Source: Fodinicurvata sp. EGI_FJ10296 (GTDB taxonomy: Bacteria; Pseudomonadota; Alphaproteobacteria; DSM-16000; Inquilinaceae). From it: a stretch of 64,000 nucleotides of DNA. Position numbers and translations under genes: made by a program. Numbering within the stretch: position 1 is the first letter of the stretch; the number at the start of each line of letters is the position of its first letter. The stretch lies in assembly GCF_040712075.1 (NCBI RefSeq), contig NZ_JBFCVL010000008.1, forward strand, positions 124,001 to 188,000, written 5' to 3'. Shown here piece by piece: positions 14,800 through 27,151 of this stretch. The notes beneath the pieces were generated by a model. That model ran no database searches, was not told the DNA's origin, and was given only the letters and a program-made list of their open reading frames with translations.

Positions 14800-16038
14800 C
14801 TAGGGACCGACCTCGGAAACGATGGCGTCGAGAAGAGTTCCCTCATCAGCTCCCAGTTGCCAGATCACCACCCCTCCAAGTTGCTCGCGGCGCGCGAAAT
14901 CTGCCTTCAACCCTATTGACCGCGCATCGTCGTAGGTCACCCATATGCCGCTCTCGACGCCGTAAAGATACGGCACACGCGCCCCTTCGTGCCAGTGCGG
15001 AACAAGATCGGGATAAACAGCACGAAGGCGGTCAAGCTGGCGGTGGTTGACCGTATCGCTTTGCCAATGCGGGCCTCCGCCCGGCGTGCCGGGCTGGAAA
15101 AGACCGTCGTCCGGTCCTGTTACGCCGGAAAATACCCTGCCGTAGAAGGGAATACCGAGTACAAGGCGTTCGCCACGCACGCCGGCAGCGCGCAGAGCAC
15201 TGATGCTTGCCTCGGCGCTACCGGACGGTGCCGACTCCGCTGAAGCCTGGTGAAGGGGAGAATTGAACCCCGTGACGTTCCTCCCCGCGATGTAGTCGTA
15301 GGTCATCACGTTGATCCAGTCCACCACGGCACCGAGGGCCGCAGGCTCTATATTGCCAAGCATTGGCACACTGGCCGAAACCGCCACGGAGAGTTGATAG
15401 CGCTCGCCCTGGGGATGGGTCAGTGTGTCTAGCTGTCTGCGGAATTCCACCATCAGTTTCGTGAAATTGCTGCGATCCGAAGGGTTGTAGACGTTGTCCG
15501 GCAAACCACCCGAAACAGGGTATTCCCAGTCGATATCGATCCCGTCGAAGATCGTCGGATACCCTTTGATGAAGAGATCGATCGCCGAGCGGACAAAGCG
15601 CTCGCGGCTTTCGGGTGTACGAGCCACCTCGGAAAAGTGGGTGGAACCGGTCCAGCCGCCGATGGAGATCATGACACGAAGATGCGGATACCGATGCTTG
15701 AGCGCGGCCAGCGCTGCGAAGTTGCCGCCGGTCGGCACCGTGGCATTATCGCCGCAGGCGCCGATATCGGCGCACGGATCTCCCAGCTCGGCATGCCCTT
15801 CCCGGGATACAGCGCCGAAGGCGTAATAGATGTGCGTGAGCGCATCGCCATCGATCGCGGAAATCTCCGGCGCATCACCGTATATGTCCCAGGAGGTGAC
15901 GTATCCCTTCACTGCCAGGAGCGGATCGGGTGACCGATCGCCCACACCGGCACCAGCGGGCACGCCAACCAGAAACGCCACGACTGCGGCTGCCCAGAGT
16001 ACCGCGCCTTGGCGGCCCTTATAAAGAAAGATATGCAT
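14800..16038 (-). CDS. Secreted GH18 glycoside hydrolase (chitinase-like)
   Basis: A 412-residue exported protein with signal peptide (about 1-31) and one GH18 TIM-barrel. The full catalytic motif D-G-I-D-I-D-W-E is at 165-172, so the proton-donor Glu is intact; RVMISIGGWTGS, VDWINVMTYDYI and the C-terminal GGVVIWQLGADEG are also family features. GH18 enzymes hydrolyse beta-1,4-GlcNAc chains with substrate assistance by the N-acetyl group. Its place as last gene of an exopolysaccharide operon suggests it trims or remodels that polymer rather than feeding on chitin. ATG 16038 has GGTGGTAGGT before it; its start overlaps the exporter gene. Confidence 0.86.
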   Translation of the reverse strand: MHIFLYKGRQGAVLWAAAVVAFLVGVPAGAGVGDRSPDPLLAVKGYVTSWDIYGDAPEISAIDGDALTHIYYAFGAVSREGHAELGDPCADIGACGDNATVPTGGNFAALAALKHRYPHLRVMISIGGWTGSTHFSEVARTPESRERFVRSAIDLFIKGYPTIFDGIDIDWEYPVSGGLPDNVYNPSDRSNFTKLMVEFRRQLDTLTHPQGERYQLSVAVSASVPMLGNIEPAALGAVVDWINVMTYDYIAGRNVTGFNSPLHQASAESAPSGSAEASISALRAAGVRGERLVLGIPFYGRVFSGVTGPDDGLFQPGTPGGGPHWQSDTVNHRQLDRLRAVYPDLVPHWHEGARVPYLYGVESGIWVTYDDARSIGLKADFARREQLGGVVIWQLGADEGTLLDAIVSEVGP

Positions 16039-17494
16039 ACCTACCACCCGACCTGGGCTTTACATCAAGAATGTCGCCCGGTTGCAACGGTGTGTAGAGA
16101 TCAGCCTCCAGCCGCTCGATACCTGCGGGCGTTCGCCGGACGATCTCAAACTCGAGGTCATGCTCCGACTCACCACCAGCACCGAACGGAGGACGCGCGC
16201 CGAGCATGGGGGCCAGGCTTTCCAGCACCTGTTCCTCCTGAGCGATCGCGGCGCGCAGTGACTGAATCTCCTGCTCCTGGTCGACGATACGTTCCAACTC
16301 GATGCGGATAGCCGTCTGGCGAACCTCTGCCAGGTTGCGTTCAAGGCGGCTGCGCGTCGCGCGCATGGAATTCCAGCGATTGATCGCCTCGGCACGCTCA
16401 TTGCGAACGATTTGAACATGATTATCGCTCGTCAGGCCACTCGCGAGATGCGCTTCGAATTGGCTGGCACGCTCCGATTTCAGCCGCATGTCGGCTTCCG
16501 CGTCGCCGAGACCCTCCGTGACGATCCCGAGTTCTTCCCCAATCATTTCAGCGCTCTGCTCTGCCGCTCTTATCTCGGCCGTTCGGTGTGCATCCTCAAG
16601 TTCGAATACCCGCCGCGCCTCGGCGAGCCGCCTCTCTGCCTCCTGCTGCCCGACTTGCGCGGCGAGCATGTCGGACGCCGTGTCCGGGCGGCCCGCGTTC
16701 GTCAGCAGAACACTTGCTCGCCCCAGCAGATCGACCAGCCGCGCCCGCGCTTGATGCATGCGGACGCGCTCGCGCGCAAGATCGAGTCGCTGCCAATCAT
16801 CGACGCCTGCCCGCTGGTCCGTGCCTGTTACAGCAATGGCATGCATCACGATCATGTTCGGCCGATAATCCAGCGCGGCGGAGCTTGGGATGGCTCCGGT
16901 GACATAGACGGGTTCGCGTTCCACGACGCGCACGACCACCGAGATTTCGCCGCCAAGGACGGCGGCGTATTCCTCCGCAAGGAGCGCCTCGAAGGCTGTG
17001 GCACTCATCGACGCCGCGGGCAAGGCGCCGATAAAGGGCGCCATTACAGTGCCGTCAGCCTGTATTGTCTGTTCGCCGCTTATTTCCGAACGCTCGACGA
17101 GGGTGGCAAGCGCCGCACCTTGTTCGGCCTGCTCCATCGTCGTGTATTTCTCGAAAACACCAATCCCGAGCCGATCGCCTACTACGAGCCGGCTACCGAC
17201 TGCGGGCGGATTGCCCACTTCGGACCGATAGCCGACGTCGATCCGGTCGCCGACTGCGGTCCGGTCGCCAACTGCGGGTTGGTCGCCGACCACGGTCGTT
17301 GCGCGCGCCTCAGCATCACGGCTTATGTCAGCGTGCGCCAAAATGGGGACAAGCGCGGCACCCCTCACCGGGAGTAATACTGTCATCGCAAGTAAAAATA
17401 TCACCCCACCCACGATCAATGCCGCCCAGCAGGGCGCCATCATGCGACGGCGCCAATCCGCTTTTGCCGTCGTGGAATACTGGGCCATGAACAT
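16019..17494 (-). CDS. ExoF-like polysaccharide export protein with coiled coil
   Basis: A 491-residue protein: cytoplasmic N-terminus, a membrane segment or signal at about 22-47, a hexapeptide repeat region (68-109), a polysaccharide-export (PES/SLBB-like) domain (about 104-230; VVGDRLGIGVFEKYT, IQADGTVMAPFIGALP, YVTGAIPSSAALDYRP), a long coiled coil (about 245-430) and a C-terminal beta part ending LQPGDILDVKPRSGG. This is the ExoF layout: outer-membrane or periplasmic conduit protein of exopolysaccharide export. AGGGAAGA overlapping the synthase stop is its ribosome site. It sits between the synthase and GH18 genes. Confidence 0.8.
   Translation of the reverse strand: MFMAQYSTTAKADWRRRMMAPCWAALIVGGVIFLLAMTVLLPVRGAALVPILAHADISRDAEARATTVVGDQPAVGDRTAVGDRIDVGYRSEVGNPPAVGSRLVVGDRLGIGVFEKYTTMEQAEQGAALATLVERSEISGEQTIQADGTVMAPFIGALPAASMSATAFEALLAEEYAAVLGGEISVVVRVVEREPVYVTGAIPSSAALDYRPNMIVMHAIAVTGTDQRAGVDDWQRLDLARERVRMHQARARLVDLLGRASVLLTNAGRPDTASDMLAAQVGQQEAERRLAEARRVFELEDAHRTAEIRAAEQSAEMIGEELGIVTEGLGDAEADMRLKSERASQFEAHLASGLTSDNHVQIVRNERAEAINRWNSMRATRSRLERNLAEVRQTAIRIELERIVDQEQEIQSLRAAIAQEEQVLESLAPMLGARPPFGAGGESEHDLEFEIVRRTPAGIERLEADLYTPLQPGDILDVKPRSGGRYAYLSL
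17168..17293 (-). repeat. Seven 18-bp units encoding xVGDRx hexapeptides
   Basis: Residues 68-109 of the exporter are seven consecutive hexapeptides around V-G-D-R (VVGDQP, AVGDRT, AVGDRI, DVGYRS, EVGNPP, AVGSRL, VVGDRL). They correspond to seven degenerate 18-base units. The last unit is also the first strand of the polysaccharide-export domain, so the array looks like repeated duplication of that strand at the domain edge. Confidence 0.8.
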
Positions 17495-17505: not shown

Positions 17506-20500
17506 CTAGTTCCGCATGGATTTCGATAACGACGCCGCGCCGACCACCAGACCCGTGCGCATCAGTTTACCCCAACCGACGAGATTGCCGCGAACCGCGG
17601 CCAGCAGCGCCCGGATCGCGATAACGTATAGAAGCTGTCGATACGTAAACCGCTGTATCATCAAGAGAGGCAGCAGACGCCACGCCCTGCGATCTCCGTG
17701 CAGCGCCAGCCCAACACCCGCCGCGAAGAGATCAAACGCCTGAAATACTGCCCAGTAGAGCGCGAGCACAACCAATGTTTCATTGTCGATTCCCGCACCC
17801 GGCGCCATAATCGAGAATAGAAGCGACAGTAACGAGATCACTAATACAAGATCCATGAGCGGCGCGATCAACGTGAAAGCGTATTGGAACATGACGTTTG
17901 GGAGAGTTACGAGCGACACGCCGCCCGGGCGGGCCAGGAATGCGCCGCGGTGCTTGAATGTGACCTGAAGTGTTCCGAACAGCCAGCGGAATCGCTGCTT
18001 CATGAAACTGCCCAGAGTTTGCGGCGCCTCGGTCAACGCCACTGCGGCCGGGGCATTGCAAACGCGCCAGCCCGCCCGTTGGAGTGCAATGGTCAGGTCG
18101 CCGTCTTCGGCGAGCGTATCGCTCGCGTAGCCCCCGACCGAGACGACGGCGGTGCGCCGCCAAGCCCCGATCGCACCCGGCACCACACCGATCGCACTGT
18201 AGAGTTCGAACGCGGTCCGCTCGAGATTCTGGCCAACAATGTATTCAAGGGCCTGAAAGCGTGTCAGCAGATTCATTGTGTTTCCGACAAGAACGGTACC
18301 GGCGACGGCACCGACCTCCGGATCTTTGAACGGCGCCAGAAGGTGGCCGATCGCGTCGGGCCTCAATACGGTGTCGCCATCGATGGCAACGATGACATCG
18401 GCATCGCACATTGCAAAGCCGTGGTTCAGTGCGCTCGCCTTGCCGCCATTTGGCTTGCGCAGCACCTTTACGCGTGCATCCGCGGCAAACGTTTCCTCCA
18501 CGACAGCCGCGGTGCGGTCGGTCGATCCGTCATCAATAACGGTGATGACGAGCTGGTTGGCGACCGTAGCCTCGAGCAGCCCCAGAACCGTGTCGCAGAT
18601 AACCGTCTCTTCGTTGTAAGCGGGCACGAGGACCGCGACACTCCCCTGGAAACCGGCCTGGCACGACCGATCCTGGCGCCTGCGCTGCACGATGGCTGAG
18701 CCTGCGATGAGCACAAGCCGGGCCATTCCGAAGAGGGCCGTGGCAATGAATAGCGTTGGCAGGACGGCAAAGAGGCCGCGAAATACCCGAATTGCCCCGT
18801 CGCGGAGCATCGTGGCGCCCTCAGCCAGAATCGAACCCTCGACCAGCGGCGGCATCAGTGCATCGCGCGGCAGACCGACGAGTTCGTGGGTGGTGACAAA
18901 CCGGTATCCTTCAGCACGCAGTGTGTCGATTATGATCGGCAACGCTTCTACTGTGGGTGTACGATTTCCGCCCGAATCATGCAGCAGGATCGCTTGGCCC
19001 TGCCCGCGACGCACACCATTGACAACCCGTTCCGCGATCTGTTCGGGCGACCATGAGTAGTAATCGTATGCACTAATATCGATGCCGCCGAACAGGTATC
19101 CCATCTCCGATACCGTTGCCCAAAGCGTCGGCGATCGTTCCAGATACTGGTATTGGGTACTCGCGAAGGGGGGCCGGAACAGCAGCGATCCGCGCCCCAA
19201 CTGCGCTTCGAACAGCCGCTGGGTTGCTGTGATCTCCGCCGCAATCAACTCAGCGCCGCGATGGGTGAGATCCGGATGGAAGAACGTATGATTGCCGAAA
19301 TCGTGGCCCTCGGCGACTATGCGCGCCATCAGGTCGGGGTGCGCGAAAGCCGGCGTTCCAACCACGTAGAATGTCGCCTTGACGTCTTTCTGCGCCAGGA
19401 CGTCGAGGATCCGGGGCGTGAAAACCGGATCCGGACCATCGTCGAAAGTGAGCGCCAACACCCTGTCATCGATCGCGGTGTACTGCGCCAGCCTCGCTTG
19501 AAGCGGGACATCTGCCATGACCTGCCCGACGATGAGTCCGAGTCCGTTATGATAGGTCGTGGTTCGGCGACCCTGCGCCCCGGGCCGGGCCGACAGCAGC
19601 GCGCCGCGTGCCGCATCGAGCATACCGTACCCCGCCGGAACCACATTGAGCGACGCCATGCCTTGCGCATCGGGAAGGGCATCGCGGCCAGCGACGTCCC
19701 AGATCCCCTGGTCTTCGAGGCCAAGCCGCCAAACGGCAATTCCCGCCGGTGGCTCGGCAAATACCGCCTTGAGGTGATTGAAGGCGGTCACCGCATCGAG
19801 GTACCAGACGGTACGCGCACCATCCGATGTCGTCCGATATCGAAATCCCGGATTCAGCGTCGCCGGGTCGAAAGATATCGAGGCACCATGGTCATCCGCT
19901 CTCTGCCAGGCCTGCTGCACGGAAATCAGTTCGTCTATTCCGGCCTCTGTCCACTCGCGGCCATAGGATCCAACGGACACGATCAGTTTCTCGCGCGCGA
20001 CCCCGGACCGGTAGTGGGCCAGTTCAGCCTCGAAACGCCCTTGGCTTGCGATCGGACCCGTTCGATCCGAGCCGGCCTGTCCGTGCGTCGGAACGATGAC
20101 GTAGTCGACGGCTCTGGAAAGCTCGCGCAAGTGGCCGGTCGTGGCGAGCGGTGGGGCCATCAGGACCAACCGGCGCCCCTCGGGCGCAAGTGCCCGCCTG
20201 AGCTGGTCCAGAAACATCACTAATGACCTGTGCCCGATACGAGGCGAGTATGGCATCGAAATCGCCACGCCATCGAAATCACCAGCGCGCAGATGCTCCG
20301 CTGTGTCAGCGATGATGCCTGCACGGCGGTCAGGCAATGCCAGCAGCCTGTGCACCTCGTGCGCCGGCAATGCCGTGGACATCACTGGAAAAATCTCCGG
20401 CGGGTCGCGCTCCTGTTGCACCCAGGCATGCGCGTTGCTTGCGCCCGCCGAAGAGCGCAAACCACTCCGCTCCAGTTCGAACCAATCCGGCAGTAGGATA

Positions 20501-20844
20501 TCAATCCGCGCCGCATTTCGCTTGAGCGACGGAAAGGCTTCAACATCGGCTTCCGAATAGAACGCGAGCCGCAAGGCACCGCGCGCCGCATTTTGCACCC
20601 CGCGTTCCCGGCCCGGGACCAAAGCAGGTTCGTCTGGGCTGCCACGCAGAGGAAAATTCGAATGCATCTCGCCCGAGCTATTATCTCTATGTTGCATCTC
20701 GGGGAAATTCGGTCCATAAATCACGCCGATCACAATTGCCGAAATGCCAAAAATAATCAGCATCACAAAAAATGCTATAACGATATTTGTCACTCTCGTG
20801 CGAATACCAGACCTATCAATAAATACTGGCAGTTTCTCTCGCAC
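17506..20844 (-). CDS. Trifunctional exopolysaccharide synthase: GH18-like / polysaccharide deacetylase / GT2 glycosyltransferase
   Basis: A 1112-residue membrane protein. Order: transmembrane helix (18-44); GH18-like barrel (about 85-400) whose catalytic motif is degenerate (DGVAISMP at 191-198, no Glu); CE4 deacetylase (about 460-650) with metal Asp in TFDDGPD (466-472), H519/H523 in NHTFFHP, RPPF at 557 and LLHDSG; helices near 690-715; GT2 domain (735-960) with DDGSTD (771), DGD (822), EDGD (913) and QRFRW (950-954); and C-terminal helices (980-1100). GT2 with Q-x-x-R-W makes processive beta-linked polymers; with CE4 the product is probably a partly deacetylated GlcNAc polymer. First gene of the EPS operon. 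Confidence 0.87.
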   Translation of the reverse strand: MREKLPVFIDRSGIRTRVTNIVIAFFVMLIIFGISAIVIGVIYGPNFPEMQHRDNSSGEMHSNFPLRGSPDEPALVPGRERGVQNAARGALRLAFYSEADVEAFPSLKRNAARIDILLPDWFELERSGLRSSAGASNAHAWVQQERDPPEIFPVMSTALPAHEVHRLLALPDRRAGIIADTAEHLRAGDFDGVAISMPYSPRIGHRSLVMFLDQLRRALAPEGRRLVLMAPPLATTGHLRELSRAVDYVIVPTHGQAGSDRTGPIASQGRFEAELAHYRSGVAREKLIVSVGSYGREWTEAGIDELISVQQAWQRADDHGASISFDPATLNPGFRYRTTSDGARTVWYLDAVTAFNHLKAVFAEPPAGIAVWRLGLEDQGIWDVAGRDALPDAQGMASLNVVPAGYGMLDAARGALLSARPGAQGRRTTTYHNGLGLIVGQVMADVPLQARLAQYTAIDDRVLALTFDDGPDPVFTPRILDVLAQKDVKATFYVVGTPAFAHPDLMARIVAEGHDFGNHTFFHPDLTHRGAELIAAEITATQRLFEAQLGRGSLLFRPPFASTQYQYLERSPTLWATVSEMGYLFGGIDISAYDYYSWSPEQIAERVVNGVRRGQGQAILLHDSGGNRTPTVEALPIIIDTLRAEGYRFVTTHELVGLPRDALMPPLVEGSILAEGATMLRDGAIRVFRGLFAVLPTLFIATALFGMARLVLIAGSAIVQRRRQDRSCQAGFQGSVAVLVPAYNEETVICDTVLGLLEATVANQLVITVIDDGSTDRTAAVVEETFAADARVKVLRKPNGGKASALNHGFAMCDADVIVAIDGDTVLRPDAIGHLLAPFKDPEVGAVAGTVLVGNTMNLLTRFQALEYIVGQNLERTAFELYSAIGVVPGAIGAWRRTAVVSVGGYASDTLAEDGDLTIALQRAGWRVCNAPAAVALTEAPQTLGSFMKQRFRWLFGTLQVTFKHRGAFLARPGGVSLVTLPNVMFQYAFTLIAPLMDLVLVISLLSLLFSIMAPGAGIDNETLVVLALYWAVFQAFDLFAAGVGLALHGDRRAWRLLPLLMIQRFTYRQLLYVIAIRALLAAVRGNLVGWGKLMRTGLVVGAASLSKSMRN

Positions 20845-21347
20845 TACACACCACCAATATTCTGTATCCTCGATTATAATGATTACAAAATTTTATTACT
20901 TTCACATGATATTATCCTTAGTACACAAAACTGTCCGTCAACGACAAATTTCTTGAACTCTAAAAAATAATTTCAATGAATTTACGCCAGTTATTAAAAA
21001 GCGTTCGCAGTATGACAATATGCCCGATATTGAGGGCACGATCCGACAAAGATGGAACGACACCTTAAATACGACCAAAACGCGTGCCCCTCGGAATGCA
21101 GTCAATTTTTTTGCATAGTTCGTTAGTAAACTATTAGATATTCCATTAAAGTGCAATATATTTATCCGAAGCGCAGATCCCCGCCAGCCTTGTTAACTGT
21201 AACCACTTAACGCCCGAGCAGTTTGAAAATTATAAATAAATAATGAACTTTATAACAATATACTTCTGCAATCGGCACAAGACGCACTCGCGTCAAGATC
21301 CGCATGGGATCGGGCGCCAAAAGAAATGCAGCATTCTGATATCACCA
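20845..21347. promoter_or_regulatory. AT-rich region upstream of the exopolysaccharide operon
   Basis: About 500 bases without a gene, strikingly AT-rich in a GC-rich window; the low GC continues into the first 200 bases of the synthase gene. On the minus strand a perfect TATAAT (20878 to 20873) lies about 30 bases before the synthase ATG without a good -35 box. A hairpin TGCCC-8-GGGCA is at 21021-21038. This is the likely promoter and regulatory region of the EPS operon. No ORF with a plausible protein was seen. Confidence 0.55.
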
Positions 21348-23582
21348 CTACCGGGCGGCCGGTTCTTCCCGCGCGCCCCCGACGATGCGTTCAAGCATCA
21401 CCGATGCAAGGTCTGCACGAGCTTGCGGCGTTTTCTCGACCAGATCGAGCAGCACCTGACGGGAGATGACGAGCAGGTCGACGGCCTCGCCGGTCGCAGC
21501 GGTTACCGTCGCAGTGCGCGGCCGGGATTCCAGGATGCCGATCTCGCCGAAGAATTCGCCAGGGCCCAGCGTCGCGACGACTTCGGCGGTGCTTGGCCCG
21601 GGGCCAATCCCGGCCCCGGCCTCTGGGGCGACCGAAACGTCGACGCGGCCGGTCAGGACGATATAGAAGTTCTCCGCCTCGTCGCCCTGGCGGATGATCA
21701 CCTCGCCCGCGGGAACGGTCTGGATATCGCCGGCGCCGATCAGCGACTTGACCTTGTCGGCGCCAAGGCTGGGTAGCGCCTGCTGCGCGCGGTCGGCCAG
21801 ATAGCGCTGGCGGACGCTGGCCGCGATTTCGCCGGGCACCAGATCGCTGTCGCGCACGATCGCCATAAAGTCGTCGCGCTGCATTTCCAGCACAACGACA
21901 TCGCTTGACGCCCGACAATTCGCAGTGCGCCGTCCCTCGCCCAGCAGTCCGATTTCACCGAACGCCGCACCGGCCGACAATACAGCCAGCGGCCGCTCCT
22001 CGCGTCCGGCCGAGACCTTAATGGTGCCGTCGACCAGAACATAGAACGCCTCGGCAGTGTCGCCCTGCCGCAGGATCAGGCTGCCGGAATTGAACCGCCG
22101 CTCCTGCACCCGGCCGAGCCGCTCGCGCAGCAGCGGATCGCGCAACCGGTCGCCGCCGAACAGCTCCTCCAGAGCATTGGCCGCCAGTTTCCAACGGTCG
22201 GCGCCGCCGGATTCCTGGTCGGTGCGTTCCTCGGTGAACCGAATGCGAAAGCGATTGTCCGGACCGGGAAGCGGCGACAGCACCGTGCGCAGCGGATCGC
22301 CTTCCGGCACCATCACCATTTCGCGGCGATGGATGATCCGGCTGACCGTGCACAGCACCAGCGTTTCGACCAGCCCGACCGCCGGACAGAGCCGTCGGCC
22401 GAAACCATAGGGTGCATAGGCGCCGCGTTGCTTGTGCTCGTTGCGGGGCGCGCGGCAGCGGTCCGGTTCGAAGCGGTCGGGTTGCGGATAGAAGTTGGGC
22501 GCATAATGGGCGGGCACCCCGGTATAGACGCAGAACAACCCCTTTTCGACGGCGTGACCGTTGAAGGCGAAGGATTCGTCGACCATGAACGGCATGCCCA
22601 GGGAAACCGGGTGAAGCCGCATGGACTCCTTCAGCGCGCCACGCAGGACACTCATTCCGCGCAGGCCGAGGCTGTCCGGCGGTCCGGCGGCATAGATGCT
22701 CGCGACTTCCTCGCGCACCCGGGCATAGGCTTCGGGATTCGACAACAGGTCGTGAAGCAGGAACGAGATCGTCCGGTTCATGTAAATGATCGTGCCGATG
22801 ATGCCATACTGGATCGTCGCGATCAGATCGTTGCGGGCCAGCGGTTCGCCGTCATCGGTTCGGGCGTCCATCAGGGCATCCAGGATCGTATAGGGCATGC
22901 CGTGATCGGCCGGACGGCGTTCATAGCTGTCCAGTACGCTCTCGATCATCGCGATTACCTCGGCCCGCGCCTTTTTGTAGGCCGGCAGCCGGGCCGACCA
23001 TTTCGGCCATTTCTTGACGCCAATATTCATGACCCAATGTGCATATTTCTGTGCCGACTCGTAGTGTGCGGCCAGGCTTTCCCCGCACATCAGACGGCTG
23101 TATTCGTCAAAGGCGATTCGGGTCGTGAAGTCCATGACCGAGACTTCGGCGGCCTTACCCCGGCCGGGCGGGTGTTGGTCGAGCGCCGTATCGACGGCGG
23201 CGATGATCTGCCCAATGAACTCCGACGCCAGTTGGCGCGAGAACGCGATCCGGGCCTGCCCTCGCAGATGCTGAAACGTGCCAAGCGGCTCGCTGAGCAG
23301 CACGACGCCGCCCACTTCCTCGTCCATCGCACCGAAAAAGGCCCGTCGGCTGAGCCCCTTCTCGTTCGATTTGGTGAAATGGTCCAGCGCCTCGGCCCCG
23401 GCAAGGACGGTGTAGTCCTTGAACAGGAAATTGATCTTGAACACCGGGCCGTGTTGGCGATAGGCATCGATGAAATAGGTTTTCGTGTCTTTGGTCAGCA
23501 GGTCCAGCGTATTGCCGAGCAGCGGCAGGCCGGGCAGACGGGGCGGCGGCGGAAGATCGGCGGCGGTTTGCGGCTTTGACAT
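21348..23582 (-). CDS. Cytochrome P450 fused to two C-terminal cyclic-nucleotide-binding domains
   Basis: A 744-residue cytoplasmic protein. Residues 1-450 are a P450: E319-S-M-R322 (ExxR), PDRFEPDRC, and the haem loop GFGRRLCPAVG with ligand Cys399. The I-helix (about 255-280) lacks the usual acid-Thr pair. Then come two cNMP domains, about 483-580 and 606-710, each with a phosphate-binding cassette: FGEIGLLGEGRRTA (541-554) and FGEIGILESRPRTATV (678-693), retaining the Glu and Arg that bind cyclic nucleotide. Start 23582 has AAGGAGA six bases upstream; the in-frame ATG at 23687 adds an unsupported stretch. No reductase domain. A nucleotidyl cyclase gene is divergent 213 bases away, suggesting that cyclic nucleotide controls this P450. 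Confidence 0.9.
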   Translation of the reverse strand: MSKPQTAADLPPPPRLPGLPLLGNTLDLLTKDTKTYFIDAYRQHGPVFKINFLFKDYTVLAGAEALDHFTKSNEKGLSRRAFFGAMDEEVGGVVLLSEPLGTFQHLRGQARIAFSRQLASEFIGQIIAAVDTALDQHPPGRGKAAEVSVMDFTTRIAFDEYSRLMCGESLAAHYESAQKYAHWVMNIGVKKWPKWSARLPAYKKARAEVIAMIESVLDSYERRPADHGMPYTILDALMDARTDDGEPLARNDLIATIQYGIIGTIIYMNRTISFLLHDLLSNPEAYARVREEVASIYAAGPPDSLGLRGMSVLRGALKESMRLHPVSLGMPFMVDESFAFNGHAVEKGLFCVYTGVPAHYAPNFYPQPDRFEPDRCRAPRNEHKQRGAYAPYGFGRRLCPAVGLVETLVLCTVSRIIHRREMVMVPEGDPLRTVLSPLPGPDNRFRIRFTEERTDQESGGADRWKLAANALEELFGGDRLRDPLLRERLGRVQERRFNSGSLILRQGDTAEAFYVLVDGTIKVSAGREERPLAVLSAGAAFGEIGLLGEGRRTANCRASSDVVVLEMQRDDFMAIVRDSDLVPGEIAASVRQRYLADRAQQALPSLGADKVKSLIGAGDIQTVPAGEVIIRQGDEAENFYIVLTGRVDVSVAPEAGAGIGPGPSTAEVVATLGPGEFFGEIGILESRPRTATVTAATGEAVDLLVISRQVLLDLVEKTPQARADLASVMLERIVGGAREEPAAR

Positions 23583-23795
23583 AGTGTCTCCTTCATCCTG
23601 AACAGGCCGCCGATACGGCCGCGCGACATCCCATCCCAACCAGAAAAGATTCCGCAATTCAACCAAATATGCTTGAATGCTCTGCATAATGAGAGCAATT
23701 ACAGCGCGTTAAATGGCCGCCCCCGGCTTTCACCAATTCTTCACCTGGCTGGATTATGCTCCGCCCTGATCTTTTCGATTAAGTGAATATCTGCA
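23583..23795. promoter_or_regulatory. Shared divergent promoter region of P450-cNBD and cyclase genes, with a perfect inverted repeat
   Basis: The 213 bases carry promoters for both directions. A perfect inverted repeat TGCTCT-N8-AGAGCA is at 23678-23697, the size of a typical dimer operator. Local sequence around it is AT-richer. It does not match the CRP consensus TGTGA-N6-TCACA. -10-like elements (TTATGC near 23752 on the plus strand) are weak. Confidence 0.45.
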
Positions 23796-25871
23796 ATGGC
23801 CTCTTCTGCCCCCTCATCCTCCACCGGTCACCCGGCGACGCTTCGCCCCGGCACCGAAGGCGAATGGGCGGCTCTGATCGAGGCACAGATCGGCGAGGGT
23901 CAGTTCTTCCTTGCCTACGACACCTACCGCGAGGCCGTCCACCACTGGCCAGACAGTCTGCGTCTGAGGCTTCAGGGAGTGCTGGCGCTGCTGCGCGGCG
24001 GGGCGATCGAAGAGGCTCAGCGGGCGCTCCAGCCACTGGAAATGCGGCTGGAAACCCGTCGCCAGCGACAGCGCCGCGTCGCTGTCGCCCTTCGCCGGGC
24101 ATTGGCGGATCCGCACGACGACGAAGGCATTGCGCTGACGATCGCGGAGCTGCAAGCGGCCGCCCGCCCCGACGCGCCCGATCTCGAAACGCCGGAAACG
24201 CTGCGCCTGATCATCGAGATCCAGATCGAAATCTGGGTGCGGCTGGGCGAGCGCCACCATATCGAACATGGCCGCGACATTGCCGAAGACGCCTATCAGA
24301 CAACCGGATCGGCCTATGACGGCATCACGGCCGCCGTCCTCATGGCGATGACCGGCGACGTCGACAAGGCGCGCACGCTGGCGGCGCGGGTCCGCGACGA
24401 GGATGCTCCGGCCGACGGCGGCGATGCCGAGTTTCTGCGCTATCACATCACGCGCGGCACGGCGTCCCTCGTTCTGGGCGAGACCGATGCCGCCGTGGCG
24501 GCCTTCGGCCGCGCCGTGGACGAAACGGCGCGCCATTATCCGACCGTCATCGGTCTGCTGGACCGCCTGGACCTGATCGCCCATGCCGGCATCGACGTCC
24601 CCAGGGCCGTTACTGATCTGTTGCGGCTCCCCCGGACGGCAATTTTCGCCGGGCAGCCGCTGGATCATCCCGATGCGGAGACACCCACCTTCCCGGTCTG
24701 GGCCGAAAACCGCGTCGCCGAAGCAATCCGCGAACGGCTCGCCGCGCTCGACATCGAAGTCGGCTACTGCGGTGCAAGCGCCGGATCGGATCTGCTGTTC
24801 ATCGAGGCCATGCTCGATCGCGGCGCAGAGGTCCATGTCTTCCTGCCTTTTGCCTTCGATGATTTCGTCGCCCACCGCGTTGCCTATGCCGGCGGAACCT
24901 GGGAACGCCGGTTTCGCAATGCGATGAAGCTGGTGACGTCGGTCACCTACGCGACCGAAGAGCCGTATCTGGGCCACGATGTTCTGCTGCGATACAACAA
25001 CACACTGATCGAGGGGGTGGCGCGGGTTCAGTCCATCATGCGCCGCACCCAGCCGGAGCTGATCGTCGTCTGGGATCACGAAGCGTCGACCGGCCCCGGC
25101 AGCACCGCCGATTTCATGGACGGCTGGCCCGACATCACCCGCCTTCACCTGATCGACCTGGACGATGCGCGCGCGGCCGCCGAACCGCCGATGGCGCCGC
25201 CGCCAGCCCGGCCCGGCTTCAAGACCGGCCGTCAGTCCGGCACAAGTGACCGGCGCGTGGCGGGCGAGCCGCCGGCCGGCCCCCACCGCGTCATCCGGAC
25301 CATGCTGTTCGCCGACATGGCCGGCTATAGCCGGATGGGCGACGGCGAATTGCCGGGATTGTGGGAGGGTCTTGGCGGCATTGCCGACGCGGTCGGCCAT
25401 CACGCCCGGTCGCTGACCCTGATCGAAAGCTGGGGCGACGCGATCTATGCAGTTATGCAGACGGCCACCGCCCTGGCCGATTATGCCTTCGCGCTACTGA
25501 TGGCCATCGACGCCCACCGCCGCAAGCACCAGGACGAAGCGGACACCATTCCGCTGCTGGAACTCCGGGTGGCCCTGCATGCCGGGCCGGTCTACCAGGG
25601 CATAAACCCGTTGACCGGGCGCGATATCGTCTATGGCAGCCAGGTCAGCCGCGCAGCACGGATCGAGCCGGTTTCGCTGGCCGGCCATGTCTATGCCTCG
25701 CAGCAGTTCGTGGCGATGCTGGTGTCCGAGCAGAACGCCGAGCGTCATGCCGCCGAAGCGACCGGCGGCACCTTCCGCGACAGCTATGCCTGCGAGTATA
25801 TCGGCAACCTGTCGCTGGCCAAGAACTATGGCCGCCAGCCTATCTACCGGATACGGCGGCTGGCGGAATAG
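23796..25871 (+). CDS. TPR-type class III nucleotidyl cyclase with an internal Rossmann-like domain
   Basis: A 691-residue soluble protein. Residues 1-300 are helical repeats (TPR-like: AYDTYREAVHHWPDSLRLRLQG, and GETDAAVAAFGRAVDE). Residues 315-460 form a Rossmann-like module with CGASAGSDLLFIEAML and EVHVFLPFAFDDFV. After a Pro-rich linker comes a class III cyclase domain (500-691): metal Asp507 in LFADMAGYS and Asp548 in ESWGDAIY; Glu544 sits where adenylate cyclases carry Lys; Ser618 replaces the usual Asn, and Arg622 is kept. Product (cAMP, cGMP or other) cannot be fixed. Divergent from the P450 with two cyclic-nucleotide domains. No clear ribosome site before ATG 23796. Confidence 0.82.
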   Translation: MASSAPSSSTGHPATLRPGTEGEWAALIEAQIGEGQFFLAYDTYREAVHHWPDSLRLRLQGVLALLRGGAIEEAQRALQPLEMRLETRRQRQRRVAVALRRALADPHDDEGIALTIAELQAAARPDAPDLETPETLRLIIEIQIEIWVRLGERHHIEHGRDIAEDAYQTTGSAYDGITAAVLMAMTGDVDKARTLAARVRDEDAPADGGDAEFLRYHITRGTASLVLGETDAAVAAFGRAVDETARHYPTVIGLLDRLDLIAHAGIDVPRAVTDLLRLPRTAIFAGQPLDHPDAETPTFPVWAENRVAEAIRERLAALDIEVGYCGASAGSDLLFIEAMLDRGAEVHVFLPFAFDDFVAHRVAYAGGTWERRFRNAMKLVTSVTYATEEPYLGHDVLLRYNNTLIEGVARVQSIMRRTQPELIVVWDHEASTGPGSTADFMDGWPDITRLHLIDLDDARAAAEPPMAPPPARPGFKTGRQSGTSDRRVAGEPPAGPHRVIRTMLFADMAGYSRMGDGELPGLWEGLGGIADAVGHHARSLTLIESWGDAIYAVMQTATALADYAFALLMAIDAHRRKHQDEADTIPLLELRVALHAGPVYQGINPLTGRDIVYGSQVSRAARIEPVSLAGHVYASQQFVAMLVSEQNAERHAAEATGGTFRDSYACEYIGNLSLAKNYGRQPIYRIRRLAE

Positions 25872-25879
25872 CGCACCCG

Positions 25880-26902
25880 TTACATGAATTTTTCTTCGAT
25901 ATCGGTCGATGACTCGACGCCGACCTTGTCGAAATGAGCCGACAGGAACACATCGGCCTGCTCGCGGCCCCGTTCGAACAGGCCGCCGATGAATTTGCGG
26001 TCGAGATTGGCCTGACTGGAGGCGCCGAGCTTGTTCATCGTCTCTTCGGTGTCGATCGTATGGATGAAGACTTCCTTCAGGCGACCGCCATCGTCGATCC
26101 CGCGCCGAACGAGGTCGGAAATGAAATTCACGACCCGCATTTCGCGCATGAGCGAGGAATTGAAGCTCAACCCGTTGATGCGGTCGAAGATCGAGGTCGA
26201 GTCGGTGGGCAGTTCCGACAGGTTGATCGGTGTGATCTGAACGACGAGAACGTCGCGGCAATCGCAGTTGTAGAAGATCGGGAACAATGGCGGATTGCCC
26301 ATATAGCCGCCATCCCAGTAATATTCGCCGTCGATTTCGACAGCATGATACATAAAGGGCAGACAGGCCGACGCCAGAACGGACTCGACCGACAGTTCGT
26401 CGCCCTGGAAAACCTTGACCCTGCCGTTCATGACATTGGTGGCGCACAGGAAAAGTTTGGGGCCCGGACCGGATGCCCGCAACGCGTCGAAATCCACGAC
26501 CTTCGAGATAATCGGCTCGATCGGATTATAGCCGAGCGGGTTGAGCGCGTAAGGCGACATGACCTTGGTCAACGCATCGCTGAAGGCAAAGGCCGGCGAG
26601 TATTTGATATTCCCGTCGCCGATCATCCGGTCGATCATCGATGGCCAGGGCGCAAAGGCGCCGACCTTCATCATGGCTTCCCAATAGGCCGTCAGCGCCT
26701 CTCGGGCCTTTTCGGGACCGCCGGTCTTCAGGCCATAAGCCAGGGCCGCGGCGTTCATGGCCCCGGCGCTGGTCCCGACGATACCTTCGAAGTCGAAACA
26801 GTCGGCTTCCAGGAACCGGTCAAGAACGCCCCAGGTAAAGGCTCCATGTGATCCGCCGCCCTGCAGGGCGATGTTCAGCGGCTTGCGGTCAACCGATTTC
26901 AT
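25880..26902 (-). CDS. Patatin-like phospholipase (RssA-type)
   Basis: A 340-residue lipid acyl hydrolase with oxyanion loop QGGGSHGAF, nucleophile elbow GTSAG and dyad Asp in WDGGYMGNPPL. It is cytoplasmic or peripheral with no signal peptide. The C-terminal 120 residues (SFNSSLMREMRVVNFI and following) are typical of the proteobacterial patatin subgroup. ATG 26902 is favoured; a GTG at 26914 would add MWEV. It converges on the cyclase gene with 8 bases between stops, so it is not co-transcribed with it. The substrate is likely phospholipid or a related acyl ester. Confidence 0.86.
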   Translation of the reverse strand: MKSVDRKPLNIALQGGGSHGAFTWGVLDRFLEADCFDFEGIVGTSAGAMNAAALAYGLKTGGPEKAREALTAYWEAMMKVGAFAPWPSMIDRMIGDGNIKYSPAFAFSDALTKVMSPYALNPLGYNPIEPIISKVVDFDALRASGPGPKLFLCATNVMNGRVKVFQGDELSVESVLASACLPFMYHAVEIDGEYYWDGGYMGNPPLFPIFYNCDCRDVLVVQITPINLSELPTDSTSIFDRINGLSFNSSLMREMRVVNFISDLVRRGIDDGGRLKEVFIHTIDTEETMNKLGASSQANLDRKFIGGLFERGREQADVFLSAHFDKVGVESSTDIEEKFM

Positions 26903-27151
26903 AACTTCCCACACATTCTTTGACTGACAGGATTAGGCGGCCGACGAGACCATTCGGCCAGGTTCGAGTGTCCCGATAGGCTAAGCGGAATCGACCGTTG
27001 TGGCCGTGACCATAGCGCAAAGGAACCGGTACCGACATGGTGATCGGCGACGGAACCGGCATTGCCCCTGGTCTTTCTGCTTCTCCGGTCCGATCGTGGC
27101 AGCTAGGGTAGCGCTTCCCGTCCGATCAGAAACAAGCGAGGCAAAATCGCC

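Follow-up and report, generated by a model that had tools for sequence, protein, structure and literature searches.

A rare family of cytochrome P450s fused to two cyclic-nucleotide-binding domains, with one member beside a class III nucleotidyl cyclase in Fodinicurvata

Cytochrome P450s are known to be controlled through expression, redox partners, and substrates. In the bacterium Fodinicurvata sp. EGI_FJ10296 (genome size 4.83 Mb), a P450 gene continues into two cyclic-nucleotide-binding (CNB) domains, and a gene for a class III nucleotidyl cyclase diverges from it. The locus lies within the window, the whole 64,000-nucleotide stretch of DNA that was analyzed (G000:C8:124001-188000), and raises two questions: does a cyclic nucleotide switch this P450, and is the neighboring cyclase its source? 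A preliminary description suggested that this may be a self-contained pathway in which the cyclase feeds the P450. The features of the locus, in window positions, are as follows:

21348-23582, minus strand: P450-CNB-CNB fusion protein, 744 aa, start MSKPQ (Pfam, N-termini of homologs)
22290-23546, minus strand: P450 domain, residues 13-431 (Pfam p450, E 5.9e-34)
22782-22796, minus strand: I-helix site G263-T-I-I-Y267, which replaces A-G-x-D/E-T, with the acid-alcohol pair lost
22617-22628, minus strand: ExxR motif, E319-R322 (alignment)
22386-22388, minus strand: heme-thiolate Cys399 in PYGFGRRLCPA (alignment)
21852-22103, minus strand: CNB domain A (FGEIGLLGEGRRTANC), 76.3 bits to PF00027
21432-21722, minus strand: CNB domain B (FGEIGILESRPRTATV), 76 bits to PF00027
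23583-23795, no strand: divergent intergenic stretch, 213 bases
23796-25871, plus strand: protein of TPR, conserved middle domain, and class III cyclase, 691 aa; regarded as a neighbor, not a proven part of the system
25302-25733, plus strand: class III cyclase domain (Pfam, alignment)

The full open reading frame of the fusion gene (21348-23687, minus strand) matches Pfam p450 (E 5.9e-34) and two cNMP_binding stretches (whole-protein E 2.8e-42); the P450 and two cNMP domains first described for this protein are thus present at 21348-23582 on the minus strand. An in-frame ATG at 23687 offers an alternative that is 35 aa longer, and the start is probably 23582 because the N-termini of three homologs align with MSKPQ. 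This start leaves a gap of exactly 213 bases to the cyclase ATG at 23796 and so reproduces the divergent spacing originally given. No TGTGA-N6-TCACA-like (CRP-like) site with up to two mismatches is found in 23301-24000, around the divergent promoters. An AlphaFold model of the fusion built from four sequences (mean pLDDT 41.6) was of insufficient quality for use. Between the P450 gene and a GT2 gene lies an AT-rich stretch (20700-21300, GC 0.28-0.51 per 100 bases), in contrast to the ~60-65% GC of the surrounding region. The 1112-aa protein encoded at 17506-20844 (minus strand) combines GH18-like, polysaccharide deacetylase, and GT2 synthase domains, and the product of the ORF at 14800-16047 resembles, by eye, another GH18 protein.

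The heme domain is clearly that of a cytochrome P450: the fusion protein scores 118.1 bits against the Pfam p450 gathering cut-off of 22.8, and the closest solved structures are CYP51 (E 1.7e-25) and CYP120 (E 1.4e-24). The ExxR motif and the heme-thiolate Cys are present in the window protein and kept across the fused family. To this extent the P450 motifs are intact, as the preliminary description had it; the O2-activating pair of the I-helix, in contrast, is absent. Alignment with CYP51 and CYP120 sets the I-helix position, which reads GTIIY in the window protein, GTVVY in three others, and GTIVY in the remaining copy, so that the acid-alcohol pair is missing from all five fused P450s. The five unfused relatives compared (L096, L097, L099, L100, and L101; 25-28% identity) all retain it as A[GA]LDT. 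The pair is typical of O2-activating monooxygenases, is optional for membership in the P450s, and is described (PMC9705902) as facilitating oxygen activation. Its uniform loss, with the heme Cys and ExxR retained, argues that the fused family bypasses the standard P450 cycle: normal O2 activation by these proteins is doubtful and, since none of the members found retains the pair, the heme domain probably does not act as an ordinary monooxygenase. Active P450s lacking the Thr are known exceptions to the standard rule, so this reading is unproven. Two of the unfused relatives (L096 and L097) sit in long dehydrogenase/SDR-like gene clusters that, by eye, suggest steroid or terpenoid catabolism.

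Both CNB domains retain the phosphate cassette FGEIG...R-T-A in all five fused proteins, and with it the FGE...R that marks PF00027 proteins. RTAN and RTAT, the readings of the two cassettes in the window protein, are those of protein kinase G, and both recur in the Halomonas/Billgrantia copies. With the exception of the multi-CNB protein PCR12, the best sequence matches of the CNB pair are the regulatory tandems of protein kinases G and A. In CRP-family CNB domains, Ser/Thr marks cAMP recognition and the cGMP-specific XC_0249 has Glu instead (PMC11224242); the cassette Thr is therefore not decisive for cGMP. The window genome holds 14 PF00027 matches, including both fused domains, so that many other proteins besides the fused one could receive a cyclic nucleotide.

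Five genomes, that of the window included, were found to carry the fusion. Over their full length, the copies of Halomonas salicampi (L058), Halomonas salipaludis (L059), and Billgrantia montanilacus (L060) are 59.8-61.1% identical to the window protein, and the full-length fused copy of gammaproteobacterium G1268 (L095) is 48.1% identical. The first three were located by scanning genome contigs with short exact peptide patterns, and the last came from a search of a gammaproteobacterial sample. The window genome itself holds the only fused copy among 61 relatives (one further match is an unfused P450), 372 genomes of its class (three further matches, unfused), and 398 genomes of a phylum sample. 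Fused copies were found in 2 of 151 Halomonadaceae, both already among the contig-scan loci, and in 2 of 369 genomes from the class of G397 (G397 and G1268), where the matches in G1246 and G1151 are unfused. These samples overlap, the count of five members comes from partial sampling, and at most two to three candidates per genome were scored in the 372-, 398-, and 369-genome searches and in the class search for the cyclase, so copies may escape. A plasmid search returned one P450 match covering 54% of the query. No published account of a P450-CNB fusion was found by title or abstract start, in a search outside which most subscription journals lie. The family is rare but real, and its patchy distribution suggests horizontal transfer.

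Both halves of the protein are under purifying selection in Halomonas/Billgrantia, as low dN relative to dS indicates. Among the three copies, the P450 part (dN 0.011-0.022, dS 0.33-0.48, dN/dS 0.03-0.05) is the more strongly conserved half, and the CNB part (dN 0.043-0.069, dS 0.35-0.53, dN/dS 0.12-0.16) evolves faster.

No homolog of the TPR-cyclase was found in any of the three Halomonas/Billgrantia genomes with a fused P450, or within 12 kb around L095; the same query was positive in 23 of 385 class-sample genomes. Each of the three genomes has one PF00211 match, a CHASE2-cyclase with an adenylyl-type Lys, whose gene is separated from the fused P450 gene by ~3 kb (L059), 4 kb (L060), or 16 kb (L058). 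Two PF00211 matches occur in the window genome, namely the TPR-cyclase and a protein related at 34% identity to the CHASE2-cyclase. Within class III (PF00211), which this comparison covers, the source common to the four genomes is thus the CHASE2-cyclase rather than the TPR-cyclase.

A lead to the substrate comes from a squalene/phytoene-synthase-like (SQS_PSY) gene, which lies upstream on the same strand in all three Halomonas/Billgrantia loci, with its stop codon 87 bases before the P450 ORF. The encoded protein is 352 aa long (Pfam E 4e-53 to 6e-55), and the two synthases tested with NCBIfam resemble, at scores under the cut-offs, squalene synthase TIGR01559 and HpnD. Of 151 Halomonadaceae genomes, 8 have the synthase; the fused P450 adjoins it in two, and no such P450 lies beside it in the other six. 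At three loci a GST-like gene convergent with the synthase replaces the P450 (L083:7498-9252, L084:7550-9367, and L085:8456-10261), and these GST-like genes are 49-51% identical to one near L058. No synthase adjoins the fusion gene in its surroundings in the window, or L095 in the surroundings covered, where only 0.75 kb of contig precedes the gene. Three SQS_PSY genes occur in the window genome, two of them in tandem on contig C9 and HpnC/HpnD-like by layout rather than by model; partial identity below 31% rules out an orthologue of the Halomonas synthase among them. In G001, of the window's family, an SQS-like ORF (L098:12905-14392; E 1.7e-14 to the Halomonas synthase) lies 4.6 kb from a TPR-cyclase and is possibly a hopanoid gene. 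Among the literature matches listed, no title concerns a squalene synthase/P450 gene pair in Halomonas. Because the synthase neighbor was seen only in Halomonas/Billgrantia and lacks an orthologue in the window genome, an isoprenoid substrate is a lead and not a result.

The explanation that best fits these observations, to which we give about an even chance, is that the fused protein is a non-canonical P450 gated by a cyclic nucleotide, probably acts in isoprenoid metabolism, and reads the general cyclic-nucleotide pool. For ligand binding, gating, reaction type, substrate, and messenger, we infer the following steps. The CNB pair would bind a cyclic nucleotide, for which cAMP made by the CHASE2-type cyclase of the cell is the simplest candidate, and the bound nucleotide would change the activity of the heme domain. 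The chemistry of that domain would most likely be of the peroxygenase, isomerase, or dehydratase type, acting on a hydrophobic isoprenoid. In Halomonas/Billgrantia the substrate may be the isoprenoid product of the adjacent synthase-like enzyme, and in the window genome a related C30 isoprenoid could come from the tandem SQS_PSY pair. The nucleotide-switched P450 first proposed for this locus thus stays plausible, given the fusion and the cassettes kept in all five proteins, and the part that named its own cyclase as the source is unsupported.

A more specific account, tentative and on the unlikely side, is that the tandem CNB domains were gained along with the loss of the O2 pair, that a cyclic nucleotide gates a non-monooxygenase step, peroxide-dependent or isomerizing, of bacterial triterpenoid-like metabolism, and that the TPR-cyclase was added secondarily in the window lineage as a dedicated source. 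The identity of this cyclase as a class III enzyme is borne out by a match to Guanylate_cyc above the Pfam cut-off (E 4.9e-7; 30 bits against 21.9). The TPR module described earlier is found in the family, of which 13 of 17 aligned members match TPR-S (PF20308) at E <=0.001 (an alignment that leaves out L040, L043, L047, L054, and L098); the matches of the window copy itself fall below the Pfam cut-offs (TPR_19, E 1.4e-4; TPR-S, E 0.0075, 17.3 bits against 27.6). The middle part, earlier called Rossmann-like, is conserved in the cyclase family, and its single-sequence AlphaFold model, too poor for use (mean pLDDT 44), shows alternating helices and strands. In alignment, D507, D548, and R622 are kept, S618 replaces Asn, and E544 stands at the Lys/Glu position; we take these to be the metal-binding Asp residues (507 and 548), the catalytic Arg (622), the site of the catalytic Asn (618), and the purine-specifying site (544). 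E544 aligns with the Glu of a soluble guanylyl cyclase, although Asn is the usual residue at this site among the relatives; position 611 is Ile, against Cys in that guanylyl cyclase. The literature search found nothing on point concerning TPR-S cyclases.

Homologs of the cyclase occur in 22 of 384 other class-sample genomes and, in a search of the window's family, in 3 of the 16 other genomes. The surroundings of 21 relatives were examined (20 class-sample loci and one more, with genomes G171 and G075 left out), up to ~8 kb a side and in several cases ended by the contig: one side is below 0.5 kb in L037 and L051, 1.2 kb in L050, and 2-4 kb in L036, L038, L039, L040, and L049. Annotation of the neighbors covered selected genes. 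STAS genes lie near four relatives (L036, L041, L042, and L098). All three same-family relatives carry a fused RsbW-like HATPase_c_2 domain, with a STAS gene within 35 bases after (L041:7179-9854, L042:7125-9320, and L098:6199-8281), and may thus be partner-switching nucleotidyl cyclases; in L036, the RsbW-like ATPase and STAS are separate genes on the strand opposite to the cyclase. Elsewhere the neighbors include TIR (L045), nSTAND1-WD40 (L049 and L053), and DUF4062-AAA (L054) proteins, loci that are possible conflict or defense modules. At L049:2034-9160, the genes for the TPR-cyclase and for an nSTAND1-WD40 protein of 1773 aa lie end to end on one strand. The TPR-cyclase is also kept in three apparently reduced genomes of 0.8-1.0 Mb (G362, G070, and G191; L038, L039, and L040), which suggests an important role there. 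No relatives were found in viral contigs, or on plasmids at E <=1e-15. A CBASS-like link through the patatin gene at 25880-26914 was set aside: its matches were only weak (29.3 bits, where the cut-off is 200), and no relative of this patatin occurs in the surroundings covered of the 21 cyclase relatives.

These loci bear directly on the pathway first proposed, in which an internal cue acts on the divergent TPR-cyclase, its cyclic-nucleotide product (perhaps cGMP) switches the P450-CNB protein, and both genes form one module in the window genome. The genes are divergent and 213 bases apart, their GC3 is alike (0.79 for the fusion gene and 0.80 for the cyclase gene), and E544 and the protein kinase G-like cassettes would fit a cGMP signal. 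The cyclase family can, moreover, pair with CNB proteins: in three relatives of one genus (L043, L044, and L047), a CNB gene overlaps the cyclase gene on the same strand, and Pfam confirms a Crp-type HTH in the two such CNB genes tested. Against this, none of the 21 cyclase relatives has a P450 in the surroundings covered (at most ~8 kb on either side, and less where a contig ends), and no homolog of the cyclase was found in any of the three Halomonas/Billgrantia genomes or in the 12 kb around L095. The RTAN/RTAT cassettes also occur in Halomonas/Billgrantia, where the PF00211 cyclase has an adenylyl-type Lys in all three genomes; the same-family cyclases go with STAS and RsbW; and the window enzyme has Ile for the guanylyl cyclase Cys at 611 and Ser for the catalytic Asn. 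Co-occurrence across genomes was the test that the preliminary description set for its pathway. Because the pair is not shared in the genomes and surroundings covered, a private cyclase-P450 module is rejected as the main reading, and even as a peculiarity of the window genome it is unlikely. The TPR-cyclase is probably a chance or secondary neighbor, drawn from a different and more widespread signaling family.

It is likewise improbable that the P450 domain is no enzyme at all, serving instead as a sensor of heme-bound gas or redox state, or of a hydrophobic ligand, that integrates two signals with the CNB pair on behalf of a partner. The loss of the acid-alcohol pair with the heme Cys and ExxR retained would suit such a role; the stronger conservation of the P450 part and the synthase gene adjoining three of the five fusions fit an enzyme better, and the protein lacks an output domain. 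That the CNB domains are structural or oligomerizing leftovers that bind no nucleotide, leaving the P450 constitutive, is very unlikely: the CNB part does evolve faster, but the cassette Glu and Arg persist in both domains of all five proteins, of which the window copy is just 48-61% identical to the others.

For the favored reading of a P450 gated by a cyclic nucleotide, known systems offer partial precedents. Mycobacterial Pat is a cAMP-gated acetyltransferase. Here too a CNB domain is fused to an enzyme (NF058543; PDB 4oll), and the CNB part matches (E 1.4e-19); Pat joins an acetyltransferase to one CNB domain, in contrast to a heme domain and two. Family 2B encapsulins (PMC8346489) have a CNB domain in the shell protein and common cargo that includes terpene cyclases and polyprenyl transferases, a precedent for suspected cyclic-nucleotide control of isoprenoid enzymes, whereas the CNB domains here lie in the enzyme-like protein itself. 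Pat and the encapsulins provide precedents for parts of the proposed gating logic. With the regulatory tandems of protein kinases G and A (3shr, 5j3u) the fused protein shares the tandem layout and the PKG-like RTAN/RTAT; in contrast, it is bacterial and has no kinase. The CYP51/CYP120 P450s (7jj1, 6mcw, and 2ve3; E 1.7e-25 to 1.4e-24) share the P450 signature, ExxR, and heme Cys at low sequence similarity, and differ in that the fused protein lacks the acid-alcohol pair and adds two CNB domains. Pycsar systems resemble the locus in having a class III cyclase (PycC) adjacent to a CNB effector, and the CNB part matches PycTIR (E 3.7e-21). However, the window cyclase matches none of the PADLOC families at E <=0.1, PycC included, the CNB protein is P450-like rather than TIR or membrane, and the cyclase-effector adjacency is not conserved; Pycsar-like defense was rejected on these grounds. 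TPR-S (PF20308) proteins are a further comparison: 13 of 17 cyclase family members tested match this model, and some neighbors in that family have TIR or STAND domains; the window copy falls below the cut-off, and no STAND or TIR gene was recognized beside it.

The interest of this locus therefore lies in the P450-CNB family and not in the cyclase-P450 pair, and the fused protein is more interesting than was first stated. If receptors for a second messenger are built into a P450, a heme enzyme would come under direct cyclic-nucleotide control, and the absence of the acid-alcohol pair from all members found points to unusual chemistry. With the Halomonas/Billgrantia homologs comes a lead to the substrate, as well as a host suited to testing the claims of gating and chemistry.
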